DNA of 22,575 bases, taken from the IMG/VR virus record IMGVR_UViG_3300042389_000786, positions 1 through 22,575 of that record; one strand, 5' to 3'. Below are positions 1 to 22,575 of the stretch, one piece after another. This DNA comes from a virus. The notes under the pieces were generated by a model. It was not told the origin of the DNA. It saw only the letters and a program-made list of their open reading frames with translations, and did not search any database. Every line of letters starts with the position of its first letter. The first letter of the stretch is position 1. Both the position numbers and the translations under genes were made by a program.

Positions 1-374
1 TGCTGCAGGTTGGCCCCGTACATCTGGTTCATGGCGCCCTGCTGGTTCCGGATGTCGGTACCCATCGCGTTCGCCAGCGCCTGATCCCAGCTCGCAAACT
101 GCTGCTGGGTTCCGCCACGCTGCTGACTTGGACGGACCGGAGAACCGTAGTTCGCCGTGATCCCCATCGTGCCACCCGTGCGAGCCTCAAAGGATCGACC
201 TGGTCCTTGGCGCTGTGCCGGCGAGTTCAGCCCGACGTTCTGCACCCCACCCATTCCAGTGGGGGCTGACCGACGACCCATCTGCCGATCGCGCTGTGAT
301 TGGCCACCAAACGGCTGACCGAAGTTCGACAGCGACGAAACTGGATCAAAGCCTTGGGTGTTGAATTGGCTCAT
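1..374 (-). CDS. Gln/Gly-rich phage protein, N-terminal part (cut by window edge)
   Basis: The reading frame opens at the ATG at 374 and stays open for 124 codons to the left edge, so only the N-terminus is visible. It starts MSQFNTQGFDP and is rich in Gln, Gly, Asn, Arg and Ser with no recognisable domain. Its ATG shares one base with the TAA stop of the preceding nozzle-like gene (TAATG), which indicates translational coupling within the same late operon. Position after the tail nozzle gene and the composition would fit an internal virion or ejection-type protein, but that is inference only. One copy of the dispersed 9-mer lies inside it (257-265) and is read as Ala-Pro-Thr-Gly. Confidence 0.7.
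   Translation of the reverse strand, partial: MSQFNTQGFDPVSSLSNFGQPFGGQSQRDRQMGRRSAPTGMGGVQNVGLNSPAQRQGPGRSFEARTGGTMGITANYGSPVRPSQQRGGTQQQFASWDQALANAMGTDIRNQQGAMNQMYGANLQ
257..265 (+). repeat. Dispersed 9-mer CAGTGGGGG, copy 1
   Basis: Exact copy, antisense to the partial Gln/Gly-rich gene, read there as GCC CCC ACT GGA (Ala-Pro-Thr-Gly). Confidence 0.85.
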
Positions 375-3300
375 TAGCTTCCTCGAATCTGGGTGGATCG
401 TTCGACCGACGTAATCGCACCGCGCACAATACAGCCCATCAATCGGAAGTCGAGATCAGGGCACAGAATCCGGATTCCGGGGGTCAACGTCGTACCCTTG
501 GCACCGTATCTCCCGTCAGAAGAATCGGTACCAAAGGCTGCATATACCACACCTTCATCGGCTTCTACTGACGAGTACAACGCCCGTGCCGTATCGTACG
601 TTTCCGCTGTGTACGTCGGGGTTCCTGCAACGCCCGAATACAGCAATCCCGTGAACCGGTTGAGAGGAATGGCCGTCAGTTCATCGCGGGTCGCCCCACC
701 AGAGACATCTGAAAACGAAGCCCCGATGCTTCCGACAACCTTCATCCGGAAGAAGTCCGCATTCGAGAAGGTCATCCCCTGCTCGGTCTCCATCCCCAAC
801 GGGTGGCCAGCCCACTCAAACACGACCGGGCTCACAACGAACACGTCTCCAGCCGTGGTGTTGTTGACCCACGAGTTGGCACCCGCGTTGTCCACGATCA
901 CGTCGTTCGTGTTGTTATACATGATCTTGAACTTGCGACCGATGTACGGGGTCATCGCCGCATTCGTAGACCAAACAAGGTAGGCGTACGAGAACCGCCA
1001 AGCTCCCGCCGTCACAATCGTGTTCACGGCGCTGAACGGAATCCGCTTACCAATGTTGTCCCAAGACCCTGTCGCAACAAACCGCGAATCCCCGTCGAAG
1101 TCCAACGTCGTGATTCGTCGCGTGTATTCGTAGGCAGCTGTCGCAATCTGGATCTCTCGCGACTGGTAGCAATCGACGGTGTACACCTGCGGACCAGTCC
1201 AACTGCTATTACCAGTGCCCGACGCTCGCGTGTCTTGCCAGTTCAACAAGAAGAACGCTCTTCGACTCAAGCTGTTCGTTGGGCTAACAAAGCCACTCGA
1301 CTCGATCGGCCACGACCCTTGAGCCGTCAACGCAAAGTTGGCATCCGCAACCTTCGTAGTCTTTCCCGTCGAGAACCACAGAACGTACATCTCTTCCTGC
1401 GTCGGATTGTGGACGAACAAGCAGTTCATAAACGGGTCGTGCACAACCTGGAGCACAGACAGATCCGTCTTCCACTCCTTGGCCATGACGCTGTTCAAGT
1501 TGCGAATCTCGTCAAGCTGGCCCTGCGCGTCCACGCTCTTCAAGCCGTGGCTCGTCACGTAGTAGACCGAGCTGCCCACTGAATCAGCGGCCCGAGGATT
1601 CACGATGCCGTAGCCCTCGTGCATCTCCGTCACTTTGATGTACGGCCCACTCTTCCGAATGTGGTAGACCTTGTCGCGCGAGAGTCCGATCGCATTCGAT
1701 CCTGCTCGCCCGAACTTCACAACTTCGTTACTTGGAACAGTGGGGGTATACCGATTGAACGGGGGGAACAGCTCCGGCACAAGATCCATCAAGCTGGACC
1801 AGCGCATCTCACCCAATCCACGAACCGTATCCGAGACTCGTTTCGTCTCCGTTGTCGACTCTGGTGGTGCATCAATCTTCGACACCAACATCGTGTTCTG
1901 GTGGAACAGCGCAGTGCCACCGAACGGCATCTTCTCATCAAAGACGCTGCGATCGACGTACGCATCCTGATAGACCAACTGCTTGTCTTCCAACTCGTAG
2001 AAGTACATGGCGTGTCGGCTCGTCGTTGCATCCCCGAACGTACGACCTGTGCCGTTCAAGCAAGTGTGGTAATCCGACAACCGAACAACCGCGTCCAAGA
2101 ATGGCAACCCTGCGACCATTGTGCCGCCGGCATCCTGAATCTTGACGCTTCGGTACACGTACATCAGATCGTACTTGCCGGAGTCGTACACGATCTCGAT
2201 GCCTACGTACTGATCGTTCTTCACGCTCAGGTTGTTTCCACCCTGCGTACGCGCGAGAATGAAATCTTCGCTGCGAACTTGCGCCACGGTGCTGAACGCG
2301 CTCTTGCGACCCGTCTTCGAGTTCACCAGCACGTATCCGAAGCTGTAGTCACCCGGCTCAAACTTACGAGCTTGATAACGGTTCTCCGTCGTGAACGAAC
2401 CTACGATGCTCTGATAGAAGAATCCAACACAGTCCGTACGCTTGACACCCACTTTCCAGTAGTAAGTCTTGCCGTATGCCAACCGAAGATTGGGGAACAA
2501 CTGCGCTGGCGAATAGTTCGAGACAGCCAGATTAGTAGCAATGCAGTGATCATCGAGGGCGCCTGTGCCTTCTTCAACCAAGTACACGTCCCATCGGACG
2601 TTCGCATCCAACGCTTCCCCGTCTGGGTAATACGAAGTCCAGTCCAACTTCGGGGTCACGCTCACATTGGTCTGCTTGTTCGCAGGCGTCAACAACTGCG
2701 TTAGAATCCCGACCCCATCCGTGCAAGCACTTCCAGTCGGAGTGTGCGAATTGGGGGATCCTGGTTGAGAAACAGCCCCAGCCGCCGGCACAGTGTCGTT
2801 GTAACAGATGCCCGACGCCTCATTCGGAAACAGGTTCGAGCTCGTGTACGGGTTCTCCGCCAACATCACAACCTGCGCGGACGCCGGTCGTCCCGTCTCC
2901 AACGTCGTAAACGACCCAGGCGCAATCCCACGTTCGGGGCTCGCCAACGATGGCTGCATCCCTGGGCCCGGAATCGTACCTGTGCCCGTGGATCCGATAA
3001 CTGTCGGCGTCAAGAACGTCTTGTTGGTGTACGTGACCGTCAACTTCGGACGGATCCCGTAGTTCGGCTGGGTCCGTCCCGCAAACGAGATCAAGTTGCT
3101 TGCCGTGCTTCCGCGCACAATCACGTCGGTCTTCCTAGTGAACGACTGCGACAACCCGCTCACTGCGCGTTGCACAATGTTCGTCGCCGTCAACTGAACC
3201 TTGCCCAGATAGTTCTTCAGCAGCGTCGAGGAGATCTCGTGGGCGGCCTCGTACGTCCCACCTGCCGTACCCCACGCGGCCGAGGTCGTGCGGTTGTTCC

Positions 3301-4072
3301 ACGTGACCTGCGCCTCATTCCAGAGTACTCCCGTTGCAGAAGGATCGCTCACAGGGGCCACGTACAACGTACCTGAACTACCCGTCAACGCATTACCCGT
3401 GACGGTGAACTCCAACACCGCAGACTCAACAGTCTTTCCGGTCTCAGCCGAAGTATCAAACCGTAGCAGGGTATTCTTGGTGGTACCCCCACTGATTACT
3501 TCGAGTGTCAGGGGTTGGCTGCTTTCGTAGTTGGTAGTTGCTGCGGCGCTGTTGATGAAGGCGTCTGCCTCGCAGGCGTACTCCTTCGTGCGCGTAGCCT
3601 CGATGTAGAACAGGGACGGACTGCGCCCCTCAAGGAAGCAGTACACAAAGCGCCCTGCAACTTGCACATCAAACTGGCCCGTCGCTGGAGCCGCGTCCAT
3701 CAACTTCACGCAACGGGTGAAGCTCTGATTGACCGAGTCCCAGTAGTCGATGAAGACATCCGATACAGTGGGGGTTGCCGGCCTCACTGCCCGATACACG
3801 AACCCGTAGGCGTACTCTTCGGATCCGATCCGGAAGTCCACCGCCTTGAAGTCAACGATCACGGACTTGTGCGTGTGGTTGGTTTGGTTCTGAAGCTCGG
3901 TGATCGTGTACGCCAGCTTGAAGCCAGGGAACGGTCGGAGGCCACCCTCACTGGAACCGTCGACGCCTGTCATCTCCGAGGAGAAACCACGTTGAACACC
4001 TGGGCGCTCAACGCGCTTATCCAACGTCGTCTCCATCACAGGGTATGACCAGTCAGTCTTGAGATCAGCCAC
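374..4072 (-). CDS. Large tail nozzle/tail-tube-like protein with inserted beta domains (1232 aa)
   Basis: Probable virion tail protein. The start is a GTG at 4072, preceded by the good ribosome-binding sequence GAGAGGTG. Residues about 1-165 carry the N-terminal segment PGVQRGFSSEMTGVDGSSEG followed by beta-rich sequence, and residues about 566-1232 look like a continuing beta-propeller-type nozzle. Between them lie two apparently inserted modules. Residues about 168-348 resemble a DNRLRE/CBM96-type surface domain (DAFINSAAATTNY, LLRFDTS, WNEAQVTWNN, RPKLTVTY). Residues about 460-562 resemble a bacterial fibronectin-III-like domain (TNVSVTPKLDW, LAYGKTYYWKV, GSFTT). Known podovirus nozzle proteins sit late in the head-tail operon, as here. 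The stop overlaps the next start. Three copies of the 9-mer fall inside (1738, 3486, 3766). The exact family is uncertain; a tail stabilisation or fibre-anchoring protein is the alternative. Confidence 0.68.
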   Translation of the reverse strand: MADLKTDWSYPVMETTLDKRVERPGVQRGFSSEMTGVDGSSEGGLRPFPGFKLAYTITELQNQTNHTHKSVIVDFKAVDFRIGSEEYAYGFVYRAVRPATPTVSDVFIDYWDSVNQSFTRCVKLMDAAPATGQFDVQVAGRFVYCFLEGRSPSLFYIEATRTKEYACEADAFINSAAATTNYESSQPLTLEVISGGTTKNTLLRFDTSAETGKTVESAVLEFTVTGNALTGSSGTLYVAPVSDPSATGVLWNEAQVTWNNRTTSAAWGTAGGTYEAAHEISSTLLKNYLGKVQLTATNIVQRAVSGLSQSFTRKTDVIVRGSTASNLISFAGRTQPNYGIRPKLTVTYTNKTFLTPTVIGSTGTGTIPGPGMQPSLASPERGIAPGSFTTLETGRPASAQVVMLAENPYTSSNLFPNEASGICYNDTVPAAGAVSQPGSPNSHTPTGSACTDGVGILTQLLTPANKQTNVSVTPKLDWTSYYPDGEALDANVRWDVYLVEEGTGALDDHCIATNLAVSNYSPAQLFPNLRLAYGKTYYWKVGVKRTDCVGFFYQSIVGSFTTENRYQARKFEPGDYSFGYVLVNSKTGRKSAFSTVAQVRSEDFILARTQGGNNLSVKNDQYVGIEIVYDSGKYDLMYVYRSVKIQDAGGTMVAGLPFLDAVVRLSDYHTCLNGTGRTFGDATTSRHAMYFYELEDKQLVYQDAYVDRSVFDEKMPFGGTALFHQNTMLVSKIDAPPESTTETKRVSDTVRGLGEMRWSSLMDLVPELFPPFNRYTPTVPSNEVVKFGRAGSNAIGLSRDKVYHIRKSGPYIKVTEMHEGYGIVNPRAADSVGSSVYYVTSHGLKSVDAQGQLDEIRNLNSVMAKEWKTDLSVLQVVHDPFMNCLFVHNPTQEEMYVLWFSTGKTTKVADANFALTAQGSWPIESSGFVSPTNSLSRRAFFLLNWQDTRASGTGNSSWTGPQVYTVDCYQSREIQIATAAYEYTRRITTLDFDGDSRFVATGSWDNIGKRIPFSAVNTIVTAGAWRFSYAYLVWSTNAAMTPYIGRKFKIMYNNTNDVIVDNAGANSWVNNTTAGDVFVVSPVVFEWAGHPLGMETEQGMTFSNADFFRMKVVGSIGASFSDVSGGATRDELTAIPLNRFTGLLYSGVAGTPTYTAETYDTARALYSSVEADEGVVYAAFGTDSSDGRYGAKGTTLTPGIRILCPDLDFRLMGCIVRGAITSVERSTQIRGS
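1738..1746 (+). repeat. Dispersed 9-mer CAGTGGGGG, copy 2
   Basis: Exact copy in the nozzle-like gene, read as ACC CCC ACT GTT (Thr-Pro-Thr-Val). Confidence 0.85.
3486..3494 (-). repeat. Dispersed 9-mer CAGTGGGGG, copy 3
   Basis: Exact copy with the full extended consensus ATCAGTGGGGGTACC, inside the inserted DNRLRE-like domain; read as Ile-Ser-Gly-Gly-Thr. Confidence 0.85.
3766..3774 (+). repeat. Dispersed 9-mer CAGTGGGGG, copy 4
   Basis: Exact copy in the nozzle-like gene, read as ACC CCC ACT GTA. Opposite in orientation to copy 3, 280 bp away. Confidence 0.85.
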
Positions 4073-4085
4073 GGTTCACCTCTCT

Positions 4086-4517
4086 CTAAATCTCTTTAGG
4101 CCACTTGTTCAAAGGACAAGTTGCTTTGGGCATAGTCGCCTTGATTGTGAGTTCTGCTCGTTTACTTCCTAAGTTGCAACCACATTTAGTGCACCAACCT
4201 AATTGGCCTTCTGTGGCATTCGTAGAATCTAAAGCTGGACAAACACGACAAAGAGAAAGTCGTGCTTCAAGAGCATCTCCTTGCAAAGGACCCTCAACAA
4301 CTCGGCTGATCTCTGCCTTTGCCCAACTCATCGCTTTTTGGATCAGGGTTTTAGGTGGGGGCGCAGGTGGCTTCACAACCAGTTGCACTATTGCTGGTTC
4401 GGTTGAGACGCGATGAGGGCAAAGCTTTTTACAAATGCCTTCAGAAGGTCTTGGGCCATAAAGCTTCCGACCTTGTTCGTGACTGCATTCTTGCCCGTTG
4501 TGGTACTCACATCTCAT
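4086..4517 (-). CDS. Small zinc-ribbon-like cysteine-rich phage protein (143 aa)
   Basis: The start chosen is the ATG at 4517, which forms an ATGA overlap with the TGA stop of the gene before it; a second in-frame ATG at 4529 would add four residues. Ten cysteines are visible. The C-terminal part has CRVCPALD, then WCTKCGCNLGSK and finally CPLNKW, the CxxC...CxxCGC...CPLxKW arrangement common in small phage proteins with a presumed metal-binding ribbon. The N-terminal part has another cysteine set (CEYHNGQEC, CKKLCPH). The middle is proline-rich, then helical. Function is unknown. It is the last of three consecutive cysteine-rich genes, lies in AT-richer DNA than the flanking capsid genes, and precedes the nozzle-like gene by 13 bases. 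Confidence 0.75.
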   Translation of the reverse strand: MRCEYHNGQECSHEQGRKLYGPRPSEGICKKLCPHRVSTEPAIVQLVVKPPAPPPKTLIQKAMSWAKAEISRVVEGPLQGDALEARLSLCRVCPALDSTNATEGQLGWCTKCGCNLGSKRAELTIKATMPKATCPLNKWPKEI

Positions 4518-5545
4518 GTGTACTCCCAAAACCCTGGGGGTCCAGCTTCAATGCGAACAGAACAACATCCGGAAGAGACATCTAAACTGGCCCCGCATTG
4601 GTCACAAGGGTTGTAACCCGTTGTAATAGATGGGCCATCACAGAAGGGGAAAAGGCGAGTACCTATCCCTCCTCCCGGGATGCACAACTCAGGCACGTCT
4701 TGCTCCGTAAACTCTTCAATCGAAGACAAAGCAAAAGGCCCCCTGTTTACAGAGGTATTATCAACACAAGGAAGACAACCTATCGTACCTAAACAACCCT
4801 CTTCGATACCGAGAGGTTCACCGCACCCGTCTTCAACTTCGTAACACCAACCTAAAAACCCCGCAGATCCATCGATCTGATCTAACGGGTCGTAGTCGGA
4901 GGCATAAGAAATTGTAGCTCCTCGACAGTAAGCACCTACAGGCGGGTACTGATAGAAGTCTCCACAACCCGTAAGGTTTCCTTCCGGATCTCGATAATCC
5001 ACCGCTCCATCTAAGTTTCCATCGAGTGGGAATCCACAGATAGACAAACGGTGAATCCACCCTTGAGCGGTTGTTCCTGTCCAATTACACCCGCTCGGTG
5101 TTGCTCCATAAGGAAGTATGTCTAAACAAAACCTAGTTAATCTAACCCCGTCTACAGATTGGGAGCTAATCAACGTGGATTCTGGATCGCATTGGTCGCA
5201 ATGACTTGCATAACTTTGACGTGTCAAAGTCCAAGAAACTTCTAAAAACCCTGTTGCTCTGTAACAACAACAACTACAAACAGTTCCTGGGCTACAACAC
5301 CGCTTTACAAGGTGGGCAACCACAGGTGTATACAAGGTATAAGAGATAGAAAGAGAAGATTCTAATGGAAAACTTTCTGGTTCTCCTGAAACGCACGAGC
5401 AACCAGGTAGGTCAATCCTTCTTCTCCAAGTCGCTGAATAAGAACCGGCAATGTTGTCGACAAGGTAAGTTGTGCCCATCCATTTTGGGCAGTTATCGAT
5501 TGCAGGAGTGCAACAACAACCAGCGGCAATGATTCCGTTAGACAT
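4514..5545 (-). CDS. Extremely cysteine-rich protein of unknown function (343 aa)
   Basis: No family recognised. The protein has 30 cysteines in 343 residues, often paired or in runs (GCCCTP near the N-terminus, KRCCSPGTVCSCCCY near residue 90, SHCDQCD near 120, PCDQCGASL and GCCS near the C-terminus). The CDQC pairs resemble zinc knuckles; otherwise the sequence is rich in Gly, Ser, Asp and Pro with few charges, like a beta-rich extracellular or virion surface protein. There is no signal peptide or membrane segment. Its ATG overlaps the upstream stop by 8 bases (ATGTCTAA) and its stop overlaps the next start, so it is in the tail operon. By eye the DNA is clearly more AT-rich than the capsid genes. 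Disulfide-stabilised or metal-binding virion decoration is a guess. Confidence 0.72.
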   Translation of the reverse strand: MSNGIIAAGCCCTPAIDNCPKWMGTTYLVDNIAGSYSATWRRRIDLPGCSCVSGEPESFPLESSLSISYTLYTPVVAHLVKRCCSPGTVCSCCCYRATGFLEVSWTLTRQSYASHCDQCDPESTLISSQSVDGVRLTRFCLDILPYGATPSGCNWTGTTAQGWIHRLSICGFPLDGNLDGAVDYRDPEGNLTGCGDFYQYPPVGAYCRGATISYASDYDPLDQIDGSAGFLGWCYEVEDGCGEPLGIEEGCLGTIGCLPCVDNTSVNRGPFALSSIEEFTEQDVPELCIPGGGIGTRLFPFCDGPSITTGYNPCDQCGASLDVSSGCCSVRIEAGPPGFWEYT

Positions 5546-6359
5546 CGCAAGTCACAGTCAAAGGGTTTTCCATGTGGAACCAAGGACGCCCATCTGCATC
5601 CAAGAACATTGGGACTACAGAATTGTCGCGGATTCTTTTACGGCCAACAACGGTACCTGCCGGGACGGTGTTGCCACCGTTGTTAGGTATTGAACACTCG
5701 TAAACATTGTATGCGACATACGTGGACAAAGCAGAAGATCTAGCTATTTGGCCGGAAGAGGCAACCAAGATCTCTATCCACGAATAAGTCCAAAAGGTTC
5801 CCGCACAATCAACACTGGTAAGCCCTGCTTCTGAACAGGTAATCCCTGTGATCCGAGCTTTGAAGACTGTTTCCGAAGGCCCGAACCCACAGTCACAACC
5901 CCCACTGCCTTCAAGGCCACCTCCACTTGAAGCACCACAGCCATCAACCAGACACTCATCAATCCCCAAGAACAAGCCGTTAGGGTCTTGAAGACAACGA
6001 CCAGAGATGCAGGAGTACCGCAGTTTCTCCTCTGGGCCCACCGGCGGAACAGAGCCTGGGTTCGCGGTTGGAGAGATGGCGGTCGTTGCAGGATTGCCGA
6101 CGACGTTGAAGAACGCGAACGACGTGTCCCCGAAGCCATTGCCGCCAGGCATGAAGAACTGCGCTGGCAACGACGGACCCGTTTGATTCGGGGCAGAACC
6201 AGGTGCAGAGTAACTGGTGGGGTCTACGAACTTAAGGCCAGGAGCCAACGTGACAATCTGAAACCCGTTCGTCATGCGTTGCGTGAACGCTTGCGAGAAC
6301 ACAGGGAGAATCTGCTCGAACTCCCGGTTAGCGGTGTTGAGAAGTTCGTCGTTGTTCAT
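5538..6359 (-). CDS. Structural-module protein with internal cysteine motif (273 aa)
   Basis: It starts MNNDELLNTANREFEQILPV; its ATG shares one base with the TGA stop of the adaptor-like gene (TGATG). The N-terminal ~100 residues have no cysteine and look like a structural domain. At about residues 112-136 a module begins with YSCISGRCLQDPNGLF followed by CLVDGC, a C-x4-C...G-x-F...C-x3-C pattern of the kind seen in environmental virion-associated proteins. A Gly/Ser-rich linker with CDCG follows, then a beta-rich C-terminal region ending TVTCDV; ten cysteines in all. Position directly after the adaptor fits a head-tail or tail accessory protein, but the function is not established. It holds one copy of the 9-mer (5899). 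Confidence 0.7.
   Translation of the reverse strand: MNNDELLNTANREFEQILPVFSQAFTQRMTNGFQIVTLAPGLKFVDPTSYSAPGSAPNQTGPSLPAQFFMPGGNGFGDTSFAFFNVVGNPATTAISPTANPGSVPPVGPEEKLRYSCISGRCLQDPNGLFLGIDECLVDGCGASSGGGLEGSGGCDCGFGPSETVFKARITGITCSEAGLTSVDCAGTFWTYSWIEILVASSGQIARSSALSTYVAYNVYECSIPNNGGNTVPAGTVVGRKRIRDNSVVPMFLDADGRPWFHMENPLTVTCDV
5899..5907 (-). repeat. Dispersed 9-mer CAGTGGGGG, copy 5
   Basis: Exact copy in the Gly/Ser linker of the 273-aa protein, read as GGC AGT GGG GGT. Confidence 0.8.
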
Positions 6360-7243
6360 CAGAACACGAAGAGGTTCATGTTGTCGACGGTACCCCCACT
6401 GAATCTCTTTCCAGTGCGGGAGTTCATGTTGCCCAAGGTGTCATGCGCGGTCTTGATGGCTTGGCGGTACGCGAACGCCAACGATTGCTGTTGGCCCTGC
6501 GAGATCTTTCGACCAACGCCAGCCCGCATCGCCGCGCTCAACGAGACTGCATCAACCATCGGCTCCATCACGAACGGAACTACCTCGTAGCTGTAAGAGC
6601 CTGCCGCGTTCGTGGCAGGAGTCCGCAGCGTGGCCACTCGGGTGGTCGCGTTGTACGCCGAGATCGTGCACTCGTCCGTGACATTGGCCCCAAAGATCCG
6701 CAAGTAGCAGCCCACGTAGGCGTTCTCGCGCTTATCGAGGGAGCCCAAGAAGCCACTAGATGGCAACGTGAATGTCCCGTTCGCATTCAAAGTTCCTGTC
6801 GTTCCGGCGACGTAGTGAGCGGCGACGTCGCCCGACGGAACGTACAGGATGGTGTACGTCTTGGCCTCGGTCGGGTAGGGCTTGAACGAGATCAGGTTGC
6901 CCTCGATCGACCAACCTGGGCCGTACACGTTGAACTCGCTACGAGGGTGGAAGTCCTCGATGAACACGCCCGTCGACGCATTGACGACACCCACCCGAAG
7001 AACCTGGCGCACCATTGGGGGCAACCGGTAGTACTGGGTGTTCGCAGCAACCGTGATCGTGAGCGGAACCACGACCTGTGCGTCTGACATCATGGAGACC
7101 CGCGAGACCACGTCGGTCATCGCGCTCGACATGAAGAACCGCACCAAGTAGTTATCGTCGTACTTCGCGTCCAGATCCGGATCATCCAAGTAGTGGCGAA
7201 CCTTCTCGCAGTACGTCTTGATGATGGATCCGGTTGAGTGCAT
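6359..7243 (-). CDS. Probable head-tail adaptor/connector protein (294 aa)
   Basis: It begins MHSTGSIIKTYCEKVRHYLD with an acidic, helical N-terminus (residues 1-50), a long beta-rich middle (TVAANTQYYRLPP through the region containing YTILYVPSGD) and a C-terminal helical stretch (QQQSLAFAYRQAIKTAHDTL). This helix-beta-helix arrangement, the length near 300 aa and the position two genes after the major capsid protein match podovirus adaptor or tail-tubular-A-type proteins that sit under the portal. No catalytic motif is seen. The preceding gene's TGA ends three bases before this ATG. A 9-mer copy near the 3' end (6393) is read as Phe-Ser-Gly-Gly-Thr. The adaptor assignment is inferred from architecture and order rather than a specific motif. 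Confidence 0.62.
   Translation of the reverse strand: MHSTGSIIKTYCEKVRHYLDDPDLDAKYDDNYLVRFFMSSAMTDVVSRVSMMSDAQVVVPLTITVAANTQYYRLPPMVRQVLRVGVVNASTGVFIEDFHPRSEFNVYGPGWSIEGNLISFKPYPTEAKTYTILYVPSGDVAAHYVAGTTGTLNANGTFTLPSSGFLGSLDKRENAYVGCYLRIFGANVTDECTISAYNATTRVATLRTPATNAAGSYSYEVVPFVMEPMVDAVSLSAAMRAGVGRKISQGQQQSLAFAYRQAIKTAHDTLGNMNSRTGKRFSGGTVDNMNLFVF
6393..6401 (-). repeat. Dispersed 9-mer CAGTGGGGG, copy 6
   Basis: Exact copy near the 3' end of the adaptor-like gene, read as TTC AGT GGG GGT ACC. A one-mismatch word CAGTGCGGG lies 11 bases away at 6412 on the plus strand. Confidence 0.85.
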
Positions 7244-7869: not shown

Positions 7870-9537
7870 TCACATGTAAACGCGATCTTCGGTGATGCCC
7901 GTGAGCTTCATGCCGTTGACCTGATCAGGAACCAGCTGCATGCGGATACGACCCGGCATCTGGCTCGCCTGAGTGACCAGGTTGGTTCCGCCGGTGCTCG
8001 GAGTCGTGTAGATCGGCAACTGGTTGGTCGAGGTACCGGTGATCGCGCCCGCGACGAACTCGAACGGAACGTAAGCGTCCGCCTGGCTCATCTTGGACAT
8101 GCCGTTCGGGCTCGGTGGAACGTACTTCTTCCAGTTCTTGCCACCGAGCTTGATGCCGTACAAGGTGCCTGCTTCGACGAACCGCGAGGTGTAACCCTTG
8201 TAGGTGTGACCCTCGAAGCTGAAGCTGAAGCCTTCTTGTTGGCCTTCGTTCGTGATCGACGCAACACGGTTGGTGCGATCAATGCGGTACTGGCCGATCT
8301 TCTGCGACTCGTACGCGCTCCACACACCTTCGGACGCAACGAGCGTGTCGATGGTGTGACCGAGTGGCTCGAACGCCGAGTGGACGCGCTGGAGGTAACG
8401 CTTCAGGTTGTACTCAGTCAGGACGCCGTTGACAGCGTACTTGAAGCTCTTGAACTCTGGACGCTCAGTCACGTCGATGAAGTCCGTCGAATCAGACTCA
8501 CCACCGAGAAGCGCCGTTGGACGGGTACCGCCCGTTTCAGCACCACTCTTGAGCCAGCTGTTGATGCCGGCAATGCCGGTGTACGACGCCGTACCTGCGT
8601 TGTTGACGAGGTGGCTGTTAGCGTACACAACATCACAGTTGTTGTTGAGCTCAGTGATGGCACTGATCGTGCCCGCTGCAACCGCATCGTCTTGGAAGTT
8701 ACCGACTGGATTGACCGTGGTAACAAGGACGACCTTGTTGGTCAGTGGGTCGACATTCTCGACAACAACTTGAACACGGGTGCTGCGAGTAGACTCGCTA
8801 AGGGCGAGCGCAGGAGCAGCCGTAGCTTGATCCGCACTGTCGTTGAGGCGCTTGCCAACAACTGCACCAGAAGCAGCACCGGAGTTCCACAAGAGGTCGA
8901 CGCGCTGACCACGGCTGAAGCGGTGGACTGCGTAGTTGTTGGGCTCGAACGTGATGCGGTACTGACCGGTCGAACCGATCTGTGCCGAAGTCGCGTTCGT
9001 AATCGAGCAGAGCTTGTACGAATCGTTCTGCGAGAGGTACCAGTAGTTGCACAGCGTGTGCGCCATGTTGCGGGCGAACGCGGTGAGCTTCGGAGCAACC
9101 ACTTGGTCGATGAGGGCCGGCGTAGCGTCGGCTTGCTTCTCACCAAGGGTGATCATCAGGTTGGTGACAAGCGAACGCATCGGGATCGCGAGGCGATATG
9201 CCGTGGCGTTTGGACCCTCAAGCGGGCTTGGGTAAGCCTGATTCGCCTGTTGGGTGTGCATGAGTGGGCCAAGCACCTCCGTGAGATCACCGTAGAGATC
9301 CTTGTCCCCAAAGCCTTGACCAGCTTCGATCACGCCAGTGAGGCTGCCCATGAAGAGCTTGGTGATCTTGAGGTCACGGCCGAGATCGCCGGAGTTGCCG
9401 ACGCCCTGGCTGGTGACGACGTTTTCGCGCCACACCGGATCGAGACCGGCGAGGAACACGCGCATCGACTTGTTGAGAACTTCCTGAATGCGATTTGACT
9501 GACGGTCGAAGATCGACCCGGTTGTTGCGAAAGGCAT
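7870..9537 (-). CDS. Major capsid protein (555 aa)
   Basis: Recognised mainly from position directly after a scaffold-like gene and from composition. It is an uncharged-to-mildly acidic, Thr/Val/Gly/Asn-rich protein with a helical N-terminus (MPFATTGSIFDRQSNRIQEV), a central helix (APKLTAFARNMAHTLCNYWY) and a long beta-rich remainder, as in HK97-fold capsid proteins. At 555 aa it is longer than typical HK97-fold subunits, so an insertion domain is possible in the middle third. The start at 9537 has GAAGGAA about 9 bases upstream and the scaffold stop lies 17 bases before it. A strong hairpin follows the gene. It contains no copy of the 9-mer although the genes on both sides do. Confidence 0.85.
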   Translation of the reverse strand: MPFATTGSIFDRQSNRIQEVLNKSMRVFLAGLDPVWRENVVTSQGVGNSGDLGRDLKITKLFMGSLTGVIEAGQGFGDKDLYGDLTEVLGPLMHTQQANQAYPSPLEGPNATAYRLAIPMRSLVTNLMITLGEKQADATPALIDQVVAPKLTAFARNMAHTLCNYWYLSQNDSYKLCSITNATSAQIGSTGQYRITFEPNNYAVHRFSRGQRVDLLWNSGAASGAVVGKRLNDSADQATAAPALALSESTRSTRVQVVVENVDPLTNKVVLVTTVNPVGNFQDDAVAAGTISAITELNNNCDVVYANSHLVNNAGTASYTGIAGINSWLKSGAETGGTRPTALLGGESDSTDFIDVTERPEFKSFKYAVNGVLTEYNLKRYLQRVHSAFEPLGHTIDTLVASEGVWSAYESQKIGQYRIDRTNRVASITNEGQQEGFSFSFEGHTYKGYTSRFVEAGTLYGIKLGGKNWKKYVPPSPNGMSKMSQADAYVPFEFVAGAITGTSTNQLPIYTTPSTGGTNLVTQASQMPGRIRMQLVPDQVNGMKLTGITEDRVYM

Positions 9538-18805: not shown

Positions 18806-21312
18806 TTAGCCGCCTTCTTCTTGGTTTCGGCGCGAGCGGACTTGTAGCCCTCGACGACGCCCTTCGCGCCGCGCTTTGTCGCATTGGCAAGACGGTTGGT
18901 TCCGCGCACCGTTGCATTGGCGAGACGGTCAGCTCCACCGATCAGTTTCTCAAGAGCCGCATCGACTGCTTGTTGGATCACAGGGTCTACAGGAATCGGT
19001 GCCTTCGCTGCCGTCTGTCGAGCGATCTGCGCGTTTGCTGCACGACCTTGAGCAACCCGACGAGCCGTTTCCTGCTCATTGCGGATCTTTTGCGGAGGTA
19101 CCGGCGGAAGGTCTCGGAACAATCGACCTTGGCCCCGAAGATCTGCCCCAGATTCTGAAGGAGCAGGCTTGATGGCATAAGGGGTTTCCACAGGTGCACG
19201 TGTTGTTTGCGTCGGAACATCCGCCCTAGTGAAGCCCTCAAGCAACCGTTCACCGTTCGGCATCATGGTTTGAGGGTAAGGAGGTCGCGTTGCTCCAACG
19301 GGGGTTTTCGACGGAACCAAGTTGGCAAGAGGATCTACTCCTGTTGGAACTGGACCCAATGGCCCGTAGATAGGAACGGTGGCTTCGGGGAGTCCGCCGG
19401 AGTACGGATTGGTGCGAGCCGTTCCTTGAGGCACAGGCATGTCGACAACTTGGCCCGGTTGACCAGGGTTCACTTGCGTAGTAGCTTGTGGGGTGTAGAA
19501 GTCACCCATGCCCGGGATTCGCTGGCGAGGGTTGAACTTCATACCCCTCTCGAAGCCAGGGGAAACTTGAACCGGATTGACGCGCTCTGTTGTTGGTGCG
19601 GTCTGGCCCTGAAGCATCGGGTTGTCGACGACGGGTTGAGCGCGGACAGGCGCAGGGGCTGGTCCGGCTGGTCCACGGATGCCGGCAGCGGCACCACCGA
19701 GCAAGTCTTGGACTGCACCCTGCATCTGTGCTTGAGTTTGACGCGCCTCAGCAGCGGCTCGTTCCTCGGGCGTACGAGCGCGATCAACTTCACGCTGCGC
19801 CAACTCCGCAGGAAGTGGTGCACCAAGAACTCCAGTGCCTGGACGAAACGGAGCTGCAACTGGGCTGTTATACAGGTCGCGCATAAAGCGATCGAAACCG
19901 GTATTCGCTCCTCGCAAGAGCTTCTCACCAGAGGACCTGTTGTTGAGTTCTGCGTAACCAGTGGGGTCGAAGCCGACGCGGCCAGCTTCTTCAACCATTT
20001 GGCGCTGTGCCATCTGTTGTTCTACAGCAGCTCGTTGATCCGGCGGAAGCGTAGCCAAGAGTTCTGGAGGTACCCCCACTGATTGGGTGGGTGCGGCTGG
20101 AGTTGCGGCTGAAACTGGGGTAGGAGCAGCGGCAGGAGCAGTGCTTGGAGGGATTGGGCCGAAGAGCTTATCGAGGTAGCCGCCGCGTTGCAGGTCGGCT
20201 TTCAGTTTGGCCTGCTGTTCTGGAGGGATACCGTAATCGGTGACCATCTTGTTGAACGCAGATTCCATCTTGGCGTTGTACTCAGGATCTGCGGCACCAG
20301 CGTTCGTGTTCGGAATGCCCGCAAGGTTCTTCAACTCCAAGCCAAGTGAGCCGACTGCTTTGTCGGCTGCAGCCTGATCTCTTGCCGAACTACCACGGAA
20401 GTAACCCGTTTCGTATCCACCTGGAGTTCCAGCGTTCACAAGCTCGGCGATCGTTTCCAAAGCGGATGGGGCACGACCGCCACGAGCAGCGGTGTTCAAC
20501 AAGCCCCGAGTGTTTGCCGAAGTATCAGAAGTGGCGACTTGAGACAGTTGACCAGTGGGGGTCTCCGCAATCATCCCTCGGATCTGCTCAGCCATTGCAC
20601 CCAGGTTAGTGGGGGCTGGAGGACCGACGTCTTCGGGGTTCGGGTAGGGAATTGAAAGTTCAGGAGTAGTGGGACGAGGGGTGTACTCCCTGACAAGTTT
20701 GTCAAGGTATTCTCGGTTTTTCTGTTCCGCTGCGTCGACTCCGCCGGTAAGATTGGCGGACGTAAAACGTCCCTCGTTCTCGGCATTGAACTTCGCAGCC
20801 AACGCCTCCGTCTCAGCTTTCCCAGCCTTACGCTCAGCTACACGTTCACGGATTCGATTCTTGTAGAGTTCTTGCCGACCGGCCATCCGCTCCTGTGCAG
20901 CGATTCCACGAATAGCGTTGTTGTAACGCTGCAGGATTCGTTGAGGATCTGGAGAAGCGTCGGTTCCGTAGAGGCCGCTCATCTTCAGCATGTCCATCTC
21001 GTTGCGATACTGCGCCTCCGCAGCGTTCCGCAACTGATCGAACATTGAGCGGTCCTTCGGAAGACCAGCAGTAGACGTCGTAGCCTTCGTAGCTTTCGGA
21101 GCCCCAACAGTAGAAGCCGATTGAAGACGAGATCGCGGATCTTGTTCCGGTGTCGTTCCACTCATGGGGAACTCGGCAGCGGTCAAGGGCTTGCGTGAAG
21201 AACCCCCACTGATACCAGTAGGTTGACCCTTGCGGGCTTCGAGCTCGCGCAAGAAGTATGTTGGGTCCATCAGGTATTGGGAAGACAAGAGCGGGTTTGG
21301 CATCTGGGACAT
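18802..21312 (-). CDS. Large low-complexity phage protein (836 aa)
   Basis: The start chosen is ATG 21312, with AGGAG 7 bases upstream; an earlier in-frame ATG at 21543 would run antisense through the helicase gene. The protein begins MSQMPNPLLSSQYLMDPTYF. It alternates helical charged stretches (ELYKNRIRERVAERKAGKAE near residues 145-165) with long Pro/Ala/Thr/Gln-rich disordered linkers, and ends in a basic C-terminus (GYKSARAETKKKAAK). A tandem 11-residue repeat is at residues 795-816. No enzymatic motif is recognised. Size, low complexity and operon position suggest a virion internal protein, possibly ejected with DNA, but this is not shown. It holds three exact 9-mer copies and the one-base variant. 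Confidence 0.75.
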   Translation of the reverse strand: MSQMPNPLLSSQYLMDPTYFLRELEARKGQPTGISGGSSRKPLTAAEFPMSGTTPEQDPRSRLQSASTVGAPKATKATTSTAGLPKDRSMFDQLRNAAEAQYRNEMDMLKMSGLYGTDASPDPQRILQRYNNAIRGIAAQERMAGRQELYKNRIRERVAERKAGKAETEALAAKFNAENEGRFTSANLTGGVDAAEQKNREYLDKLVREYTPRPTTPELSIPYPNPEDVGPPAPTNLGAMAEQIRGMIAETPTGQLSQVATSDTSANTRGLLNTAARGGRAPSALETIAELVNAGTPGGYETGYFRGSSARDQAAADKAVGSLGLELKNLAGIPNTNAGAADPEYNAKMESAFNKMVTDYGIPPEQQAKLKADLQRGGYLDKLFGPIPPSTAPAAAPTPVSAATPAAPTQSVGVPPELLATLPPDQRAAVEQQMAQRQMVEEAGRVGFDPTGYAELNNRSSGEKLLRGANTGFDRFMRDLYNSPVAAPFRPGTGVLGAPLPAELAQREVDRARTPEERAAAEARQTQAQMQGAVQDLLGGAAAGIRGPAGPAPAPVRAQPVVDNPMLQGQTAPTTERVNPVQVSPGFERGMKFNPRQRIPGMGDFYTPQATTQVNPGQPGQVVDMPVPQGTARTNPYSGGLPEATVPIYGPLGPVPTGVDPLANLVPSKTPVGATRPPYPQTMMPNGERLLEGFTRADVPTQTTRAPVETPYAIKPAPSESGADLRGQGRLFRDLPPVPPQKIRNEQETARRVAQGRAANAQIARQTAAKAPIPVDPVIQQAVDAALEKLIGGADRLANATVRGTNRLANATKRGAKGVVEGYKSARAETKKKAAK
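18865..18930 (-). repeat. 33-bp tandem duplication encoding an 11-aa repeat
   Basis: Two adjacent 33-bp units encode DRLANATVRGT and NRLANATKRGA near the C-terminus of the 836-aa protein. The core GCATTGGCRAGACGGT (plus strand) recurs at 18881 and 18914. The in-frame duplication is slightly diverged, so it is not brand new. Confidence 0.85.
20073..20081 (-). repeat. Dispersed 9-mer CAGTGGGGG, copy 11
   Basis: Exact copy with context ATCAGTGGGGGTACC identical over 15 bases to copy 3, but read in another codon register (TCA GTG GGG GTA). Confidence 0.85.
20553..20561 (+). repeat. Dispersed 9-mer CAGTGGGGG, copy 12
   Basis: Exact copy in the 836-aa gene, read as ACC CCC ACT GGT (Thr-Pro-Thr-Gly). 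Confidence 0.85.
20607..20615 (+). repeat. One-base variant of the 9-mer (TAGTGGGGG)
   Basis: Differs from the core only at the first base; same orientation as copy 12 and 54 bp from it. Read as GCC CCC ACT AAC. Confidence 0.55.
21203..21211 (-). repeat. Dispersed 9-mer CAGTGGGGG, copy 13
   Basis: Exact copy with full consensus ATCAGTGGGGGTTCT, about 100 bp inside the 836-aa gene from the divergent junction; read as Ile-Ser-Gly-Gly-Ser. Confidence 0.85.
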
Positions 21313-21339
21313 AAGGGCTCCTACAGGAAGGATAATCGG
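21313..21339. promoter_or_regulatory. 27-bp divergent intergenic region with back-to-back ribosome sites
   Basis: Only 27 bases separate the ATG of the minus-strand 836-aa gene from the plus-strand helicase ATG. Both ribosome sites are inside it (AGGAG on the minus strand, AGGAAGG on the plus strand, about 8 bases before 21340). There is no room for two ordinary promoters, so these must lie inside the opposite gene's coding sequence. Confidence 0.7.
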
Positions 21340-22575
21340 ATGACTTTGGGTACACAACAAAACCCTTTGCGAACAACTGAACCAATGAAGGTCGCAAGGG
21401 CCATGCTGCAGGTTTGTTTTGAGGACGGGATGGGATTGAAGGAAGTGCAGGGCCGGCTGTTCGAGTGGTACGGCGGCAAGTGGGTGCAGAGGGATCAGCA
21501 GTGGCTTGAGGACGCCGTGTGGCGATGGGCCGAGGATCTGCACGTCAGTGACGATCAGAACGGACTCGTCGTGGAGCGGTACGGCCCAACCGAGTTCAAG
21601 GTGTCAGGGATCGTGCGGGCGTTGCAGGCGCTGTGCCGAGTGGCTGCGACCGAAGTGCCGCAGTGGCTTTATACGGACTATCGGGATCGGCTGATGGATC
21701 CAGGGTGCGCGATCGCGTTCAGAGACGTGATCGTGGACGTGAAGGCGAGCGCGGGCGTTGGTGCGATGGTGTGTGTTCCGCGAGGACCGGAGTGGTTTGA
21801 TCCGTGCGTCGTGGACGTGGATTTGGATACGGGTGCGGAGTGCCCGAGGTGGATGCAGTGTTTGGAGGAGTGGAGTGGTGGGGATGAGACGTGGAAGGAG
21901 CTGTTGCAGCGGTGGATGGGCTACTCGATGATGGGCCACCGGCGTTACGCAAAGTGGATGCTGTTCCACGGAAAGATTAGGGCGGGCAAGGGCACCATCA
22001 GCACGGTGATGCGCTGGCTCGTGGGTGGGACTGGGTTCGTGGGTAGTAGTTTGGATGAGATCGCGGGCAGCTTTGGGTTGGACGGGCTGGAGTTCGCGAG
22101 AGTGCTGTGCATCTCGGAAGTGAGCGAGCTCGATTCGCGGGAGGGCGAGGTCGCGGTTCGGGTGCTGAAGAACGTGCTCGGACGGGATCCGATCTCGATC
22201 AATGCGAAGTACAAGCGCCAGATGCGGAACGTCGTGGTGAGCGCGGCCCCGTGGGTGCAGGCGAACGAGATCCCCCAGTTGCCGAACAAGGGCCGTGGCT
22301 TGAGTGGGAAGATGCTGGTGCTGCCGTTTGAGCGGAGCTTCGAGGGCAAGGAACAGCACAACCTGATGGACGTGCTAAAGGGCGAGCTGGCGGGGATCGC
22401 AGCTTGGGCGCTCAGGGGCGCGATCCGGTTGGAGGGTGCAGCGGACTCGGAGAAGTTCGCCCCCACTGATGGCGGGCTGAGGGTGGTCAAGGATTACCAC
22501 CTGACCAATAACCCTTTCGATTACTTTTTGGAGGCGCGGTTCGTGAAGAACAGGGGTGGGTTCGTGGCGAATGAG
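21340..22575 (+). CDS. P4/D5-type SF3 replicative helicase, N-terminal 412 aa (cut by window edge)
   Basis: The only plus-strand gene in the window. It starts MTLGTQQNPLRTTEPMKVAR after AGGAAGG and stays open to the right edge. Residues about 169-205 match the D5-N-type region preceding the helicase (CPRWMQCLEEWSGGDETWKE, LLQRWMGYSMMG). Walker A is at about 210-220 (HGKIRAGKGTI) and Walker B at about 254-262 (RVLCISEVS, E260). A sensor region follows at 299-313 (VVSAAPWVQANEIPQLP) and a probable arginine-finger region at 325-334 (MLVLPFERSF). Known P4 and poxvirus D5-type proteins unwind DNA at replication forks and often carry an N-terminal primase domain; only about 165 residues precede the D5-N region here, with no primase motif seen. 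One 9-mer copy lies at 22460. Confidence 0.88.
   Translation, partial: MTLGTQQNPLRTTEPMKVARAMLQVCFEDGMGLKEVQGRLFEWYGGKWVQRDQQWLEDAVWRWAEDLHVSDDQNGLVVERYGPTEFKVSGIVRALQALCRVAATEVPQWLYTDYRDRLMDPGCAIAFRDVIVDVKASAGVGAMVCVPRGPEWFDPCVVDVDLDTGAECPRWMQCLEEWSGGDETWKELLQRWMGYSMMGHRRYAKWMLFHGKIRAGKGTISTVMRWLVGGTGFVGSSLDEIAGSFGLDGLEFARVLCISEVSELDSREGEVAVRVLKNVLGRDPISINAKYKRQMRNVVVSAAPWVQANEIPQLPNKGRGLSGKMLVLPFERSFEGKEQHNLMDVLKGELAGIAAWALRGAIRLEGAADSEKFAPTDGGLRVVKDYHLTNNPFDYFLEARFVKNRGGFVANE
22460..22468 (-). repeat. Dispersed 9-mer CAGTGGGGG, copy 14
   Basis: Exact copy in the helicase gene (ATCAGTGGGGGCGAA on the minus strand), read on the plus strand as GCC CCC ACT GAT. Shows the motif is not confined to the late minus-strand operon. 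Confidence 0.85.

Follow-up and report, generated by a model that had tools for sequence, protein, structure and literature searches.

What is the role of three overlapping, cysteine-rich genes that lie between the adaptor and the tail gene of a phage, in DNA more AT-rich than that around them? The stretch analysed here (the window) is a complete IMG/VR record of 22,575 bases, apparently a fragment, because the contigs of its relatives reach 53–54 kb. Its genes run on the minus strand from the terminase through further head genes to an SU10-type adaptor, followed by the three genes, here A, B and C, and a 1232-aa tail gene.

The terminase matched phrog_38 in a PHROG profile search (1.4 × 10−39), while the portal, scaffold and major capsid genes were named from gene order, without profile support. 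The adaptor gene (6359..7243, minus strand), upstream of A, matched Pfam PF24175 at 28.8 bits against a cut-off of 27. A nozzle role for the tail gene (374..4072, minus strand), downstream of C, is suggested by its position; its protein matched no PHROG, and profiles of the tail, adaptor, portal and major capsid proteins found nothing convincing among PDB sequences. Residues 163–263 of this nozzle-like protein (window 3284–3586) matched the carbohydrate-binding domain CBM96 (PF24517, E = 8.6 × 10−11), so the tail itself may also bind sugars. A long plus-strand ORF (21223–22575), cut at the record end, matched DUF5906 (5.2 × 10−7) and may be the opening of a replication module. Among isolate phages, TerL of the window had one weak match and the major capsid protein, portal, A and C had none; the portal also had no match in genome contigs.

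An initial annotation had singled out A, B and C for their 10, 30 and 10 cysteines, and a recount on the open reading frames gave exactly these numbers. All three are on the minus strand: A (5538..6359) encodes 273 aa, B (4514..5545) 343 aa and C (4086..4517) 143 aa. The runs described in B are present, with CCC at residues 10–12 (5510..5518, minus strand) and CSCCC at residues 90–94. Against a background of the 13 other window genes tallied, which have 45 cysteines in 5870 residues (0.77%), the chance probabilities of these contents are 6 × 10−5 for A, 4 × 10−22 for B and 3 × 10−7 for C. The coupling proposed for the genes is also real: A and B overlap by 8 bp, and the probable ATG of C shares ATGA with the stop codon of B. 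The listed TTG start of C at 4529, which gives 147 aa, is probably incorrect; the ATG at 4517, probably the true start, produces the ATGA overlap, corresponds in position to a methionine in relatives of C, and retains the 10 cysteines in a protein of 143 aa.

AT-richness and exchange of the cassette

The AT-richness, previously judged by eye, was confirmed by measurement. Windows of 600 bp from 3901 to 6000 had GC contents of 0.457–0.510, compared with about 0.53–0.63 elsewhere, no other part of the window being as AT-rich as this island. GC3 was 0.372 in B and 0.378 in C (0.37–0.38 v about 0.72 elsewhere in the window) and 0.558 in A, the lowest value for any other tallied gene being 0.537 and most lying at 0.62–0.80. 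The change falls within A, as had been suggested for the end of that gene, with a GC3 of 0.67 in codons 1–135 and 0.45 in codons 136–273. By GC3, codon use in the island differs from that of the neighbouring genes.

Comparison with the relative L013 established a swap. The terminase, portal, scaffold, adaptor and tail proteins of L013 are 97–100% identical to those of the window. At the DNA level (blastn and identity in 60-bp bins), the flanks are 95–100% identical, and identity falls to about 45% over ~1.87 kb (5.95–4.08 kb). One breakpoint lies inside A (boundary at about 5.90–5.98 kb) and the other at 4082, 10 bp before the tail gene, where identity returns to 97–100%. The N-terminal half of A (5949..6359, minus strand), which for the most part matches L013 at 95–100% identity, belongs with the phage backbone. 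The exchanged AT-richer segment (4083..5950, neither strand assigned), hereafter the cassette, comprises the C-terminal half of A (5541..5948, minus strand), B and C. The middle gene of L013 is of a different class, with 37 cysteines, while L027 (whose contig is labelled L038 in the DNA comparison) has a more distant backbone, at about 90% DNA identity, yet the same B class at 81%. Since one relative combines a near-identical backbone with another B class and the other a distant backbone with the same class, one or other of the lineages has exchanged the allele block.

The major capsid protein is also only 75% identical to that of L013, whereas the portal, scaffold, terminase and adaptor are 98–100% identical, so the cassette is not the sole exchanged stretch. 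The capsid gene occupies 7870–9537, the DNA match to L013 has a gap at 9006–8579, and by this comparison an exchange also seems to have affected part of this gene. Elsewhere, L013 has about 420 extra bases (its positions 1608–2027) where the window has about a dozen (17388–17376), and L038 differs from the window similarly at that point.

The proposal that the island was acquired from another source stands in part. Its DNA has a separate history, as seen in the sharp L013 boundary inside A and the coinciding change in GC3, but its genes are not foreign newcomers. A search with the capsid protein found 31 loci, 18 of them readable from adaptor to tail gene (including the near-duplicates L002/L003, L014/L015 and L017/L018/L020), and in all 18 the genes occupy this slot, in this order, and are cysteine-rich. 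The exchange concerned one allele of a module already in place. L027 (B GC3 0.33) and L002 (B GC3 0.43) have the low-GC class I alleles as well, and L011, which has an AT-richer backbone, is a possible donor type rather than a proven donor. Two simpler accounts were rejected: a foreign island of new genes, because the set is present in all 18 readable relatives, and a low GC typical of the whole family, because the B genes of L014, L016 and L025 have GC3 values of 0.79–0.91.

Variation and distance coupling among relatives

Every readable relative (18/18) carries an orthologue of A, a cysteine-rich B-type ORF with 25–55 cysteines, and C, and the orthologues are cysteine-rich in all relatives. 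Many have one or more extra genes between the adaptor and A (L005, L011, L016–L018, L020–L021, L026, L030 and L032; none in the window), often of about 280–410 aa with few cysteines.

Conservation within the set is very uneven. B was recognisable by tblastn in only four of the 31 loci (L002, L003, L011 and L027); the others belong to at least two further classes, which have little in common except their beginning, where a CCC motif precedes further cysteines. Identity of B among relatives is as low as 12.7%, with the short N-terminal CCC motif kept; this end may provide the attachment. Mean pairwise identity over 11 phages was 26.6% for B, 45.4% for C, 48.5% for A, 62.9% for the tail protein, 69% for the adaptor and 76.9% for the major capsid protein. 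Against L027, dN/dS was 0.318 for B and 0.024–0.169 for the other seven genes. All genes compared among close relatives show purifying selection, which is weakest in B, where positive selection was not seen.

Amid this variation the cysteines are retained. In class I (four sequences), 18 of 24 cysteines were invariant compared with 47 of 236 other residues (P = 8 × 10−8), and in class II (nine sequences) 23 of the 48 L010 cysteines were present in at least eight sequences, a retention rate above that of every other residue. Cysteine counts in the relatives' B proteins are both odd and even, and parity gives no sign of disulfides. A structure model of B from four sequences (pLDDT 42) consisted mainly of beta strands and was too poor for a structure search or for cysteine geometry. 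Metal binding, or disulfides formed after release, is plausible. Thioredoxin or glutaredoxin genes had no matches in 10 of 10 related records, which indicates no more than that the search found no helper of this kind encoded by the phages.

Sequence searches with B reached little beyond the relatives. A single-sequence search of viral contigs found none, and an alignment-based search found four loci, all on contigs already in the relative set; isolate phages yielded nothing beyond two chance-level matches to mycobacteriophage tape measures. Searches of Pfam, PHROGs and PDB sequences matched neither A nor B to any family, fibres and adhesins included, and a class II B profile found nothing convincing among PDB sequences.

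We compared distance matrices over the 11 phages. Distances in the N-terminal half of A followed those of the tail gene (r = 0.90; partial 0.89, with adaptor, capsid and scaffold distances removed; permutation P = 0.0002), even with B and C separating the two genes, whereas whole A was poorly correlated with the neighbouring adaptor (r = 0.38, partial 0.13). Distances in the C-terminal half of A followed B (r = 0.76, partial 0.68), while those in the N-terminal half were not clearly related to B (r = 0.37, partial 0.27, P = 0.08). B and C were also correlated (r = 0.74, partial 0.67; 0.84 without L013). Physical linkage alone could yield the correlations of B with C and with the C-terminal half of A; it accounts less well for the link of A to the tail.

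An alignment of 16 A sequences showed a conserved N-terminal part, a C..C..EC..C motif and a C-terminal beta domain. In an AlphaFold2 model this domain (residues 166–271) had block pLDDT values of about 75–94, and the stretch before it was poorly predicted. Its best structural matches were OB-like barrels, weak at a Z of about 5 and too low to name a fold; chains of IF1 and of the PhiTE and P1 baseplates (Z 5.2–5.3) tied with ribosomal proteins, and the fold may be one outside the list compared. The model had no BFVD match at E ≤ 0.001.

These observations lead us to favour, with some reserve, the explanation that the three genes form an exchangeable host-recognition module on the tail surface, B being the recognition protein, A the docking piece and C a maturation partner. 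The middle gene varies strongly and the set is swapped as a unit; the cassette is therefore probably part of the phage's host recognition. B would be a hypervariable, cysteine-rich tail protein of the virion, binding the receptor, with a fast-changing surface held together by its cysteines acting through metal sites, disulfides completed after lysis, or both. The distance coupling suggests that A docks on the tail and presents B, its N-terminal half fitting the tail protein and its C-terminal half fitting B. A swap would then change the exposed part while the docking face remained matched to the particle.

Alternatively, B could serve in the structure or decoration of the neck or tail and stabilise the released particle through cysteine cross-links; it would then have no part in host choice, and its variation would be otherwise caused. 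We regard this as unlikely. A purely structural part would be expected to be roughly as conserved as its neighbours, and mean identity is 69% for the adaptor, 63% for the tail protein and 27% for B; exchange as a cassette is, moreover, typical of recognition parts. Consistent with a structural role, cysteines are the most conserved residues of B, and B lies between the adaptor and the tail gene. Disulfide cross-linked tails do exist: in the available part of the description of Agrobacterium phage Milano (PMC10811340), structural proteins average 2.1% cysteine. Against a structural role, the 8.75% in B is about four times that average.

Gene C and its cysteine-rich neighbour in other phages

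The C-terminal part of C forms a zinc-ribbon-like module (CxxC...CxxCxC...CP...W; 4101..4250, minus strand) with columns invariant in 24 relatives. C of the window matched phrog_13558 (E = 8.6 × 10−7, residues 86–143), as did 22 of the 24 relatives. DUF6171 (PF19668) was matched by 10 of the 24 (best 6.4 × 10−5), with no match for C of the window at E up to 1, and two of the 24 weakly matched a Zn-ribbon family. Both phrog_13558 and DUF6171 are families of unknown function, and a C profile found nothing convincing among PDB sequences.

A profile search of viral contigs with C gave 169 loci, of which 80 were kept, and a search of genome contigs with C gave two metagenome-assembled genome (MAG) contigs, assigned to Rubrivivax and Porticoccaceae. 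A script examined the upstream gene at 80 loci, 78 of those kept plus the two on MAG contigs. The ORF directly upstream of C was cysteine-rich in 76 of the 80; among 479 background ORFs at least 200 aa long, the rate was 3.8%. Contigs from the capsid scan hold 16 of the 80 loci, and the other 64 lie elsewhere. At the other four (L149, L183, L190 and L191) the script had missed a cysteine-rich ORF because it chose another one; on inspection such an ORF lies directly upstream of C in all four, giving 80/80. The B-type proteins have 12 to 77 cysteines, the one with 12 being cut by the contig end, and reach 1277 aa; CCC occurs in 69 of the 80 script-picked ORFs, usually near the start. On the Porticoccaceae contig (L199:2-8342), a 2507-aa ORF with 107 cysteines, cut at the locus end, directly precedes the C-like gene.

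The pair is spread over contigs of 34 to 68% GC, one set of which carries a T4-type gp32 (phrog_224, 2 × 10−106) and another a major tail protein. Among 64 hand-chosen neighbours on 16 contigs, some matched major tail, minor tail, tape measure, tail fibre or tail fibre assembly families and three matched the N-terminal domain of Mtd (Mtd_N); others matched integrase or recombination families. Tail genes thus neighbour the pair on other contigs, as the adaptor and the 1232-aa tail gene flank it in the window.

Isolate phages gave a less uniform picture. C of L192 and C of L166 had no isolate-phage match; a C relative gave weak tblastn matches (E 4 × 10−3 to 3) in cyanophages and two Burkholderiales-host phages, a short Listeria record being at chance level. 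Six records were opened, three of which had a tail-gene context and only two cysteine-rich neighbours (S-SRM01 and S-CRES2). The C-like gene directly follows a gene annotated tail fiber (3 cysteines) in S-CBS2 and an "adhesin tip complex" gene (11 cysteines) in S-SRM01; in S-CRES2 it follows gp92 (1 cysteine), with the 53-cysteine gp91 two genes upstream. No tail or cysteine-rich neighbour was seen beside the C-like gene in S-CBWM1, ACP17 or V45v66. C-like proteins are therefore not always paired with a cysteine-rich gene.

As a small zinc-ribbon-type protein whose translation would be coupled right after that of B, C may be the dedicated partner of B, most likely helping it to fold, take up metal or assemble; the arrangement would resemble that of a tail-fibre gene followed by its chaperone gene. 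A metal could also be the point of the system, B being loaded with Zn, Fe or Fe-S and C its metallochaperone, with the metal serving, for example, docking to metal-siderophore receptors. The invariant CxxC...CxxCxC...C set of C in 24 relatives and the two Zn-ribbon matches fit this idea, as does the abundance of CxxC and CCC clusters in B, where a cluster of four cysteines (83, 84, 90 and 92) is missing as a block in L011. Cysteine counts and spacings nevertheless vary widely among B classes, which is odd for a defined cofactor. The available text on Alteromonas phage R22Y (PMC11705849) proposes iron sites in a tail fibre, but these are histidines rather than cysteines, and we judge a defined metalloprotein quite unlikely.

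It is very unlikely, in our estimation, that B acts outside the particle, either after release or within the infected cell, and merely travels with the tail genes. By eye, the B-C pair adjoins possible lysis genes on some other contigs, and the virion location of B in the window is itself deduced. The slot between adaptor and tail gene is nonetheless fixed, and distances couple A to the tail and the C-terminal half of A to B.

Known tail systems and wider meaning

A host-recognition module of this kind would work like a fibre-plus-chaperone module: the short CCC start is kept, the remainder varies, the set is exchanged as a unit, and a small partner gene lies downstream. Homology to known modules was not found, as A and B had no Pfam, PHROG or PDB-sequence match and C matched families of unknown function alone. 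In cyanophage Pam3, gp24 and gp25 are a tail fibre and its chaperone, and the available text (PMC9608196) describes, as we propose for the cassette, a receptor-facing tail protein with a dedicated phage-encoded partner, docking at one end and recognition in the distal part. We found no sequence relation between the two; the Pam3 chaperone combines a beta-sandwich domain with a helical one, unlike the cysteine-rich, zinc-ribbon-type C, and in that text the fibre is not described as cysteine-rich.

Milano, with its disulfide-linked tail, is an example of virion tail proteins that are rich in cysteine and produced inside a bacterium, as B would be. The bonds reported in the available part of that work (PMC10811340) map to sheath and baseplate, and the structural proteins there have the lower average of 2.1% cysteine against 8.75% in B. 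R22Y similarly provides a host-recognition protein proposed to carry metal, in its case through iron-binding HxH motifs, with no cysteine cluster or partner gene mentioned in the available text (PMC11705849). Together with Pam3 they serve as precedents for the mechanism, not as demonstrated homologues of the cassette. In S-SRM01 (MW015081; PMC8557907, as available), the gene for the C-like protein comes right after one annotated as a gp37-gp38 adhesin tip, which has a cysteine cluster; the tblastn match is weak (E about 1), and the adhesin is Gly-rich and has no CCC. We recognised no description of the cysteine-rich gene pair and no mention of DUF6171 in the literature searched, which consisted of titles and abstract starts, mostly outside subscription journals.

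More tentatively, CCC-type cysteine-rich proteins with a zinc-ribbon partner might constitute a widespread, unnamed class of host-recognition proteins in podovirus-like, siphovirus-like and T4-like phages. A conserved metal or disulfide scaffold would free almost every other residue to change, and the partner would load or fold it. If this is right, a short N-terminus with CCC followed by a small CxxC...CxxCGC...CP..W gene would be a searchable signature, helping to find host-recognition genes in uncultured phages, where they often lack annotation. It would also raise the question of how a reducing cytoplasm can yield a protein containing as many as 77 cysteines, and how the zinc-ribbon partner acts. 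Cultured cyanophages with C-like genes beside adhesin or tail-fibre genes would be the first system in which to ask.
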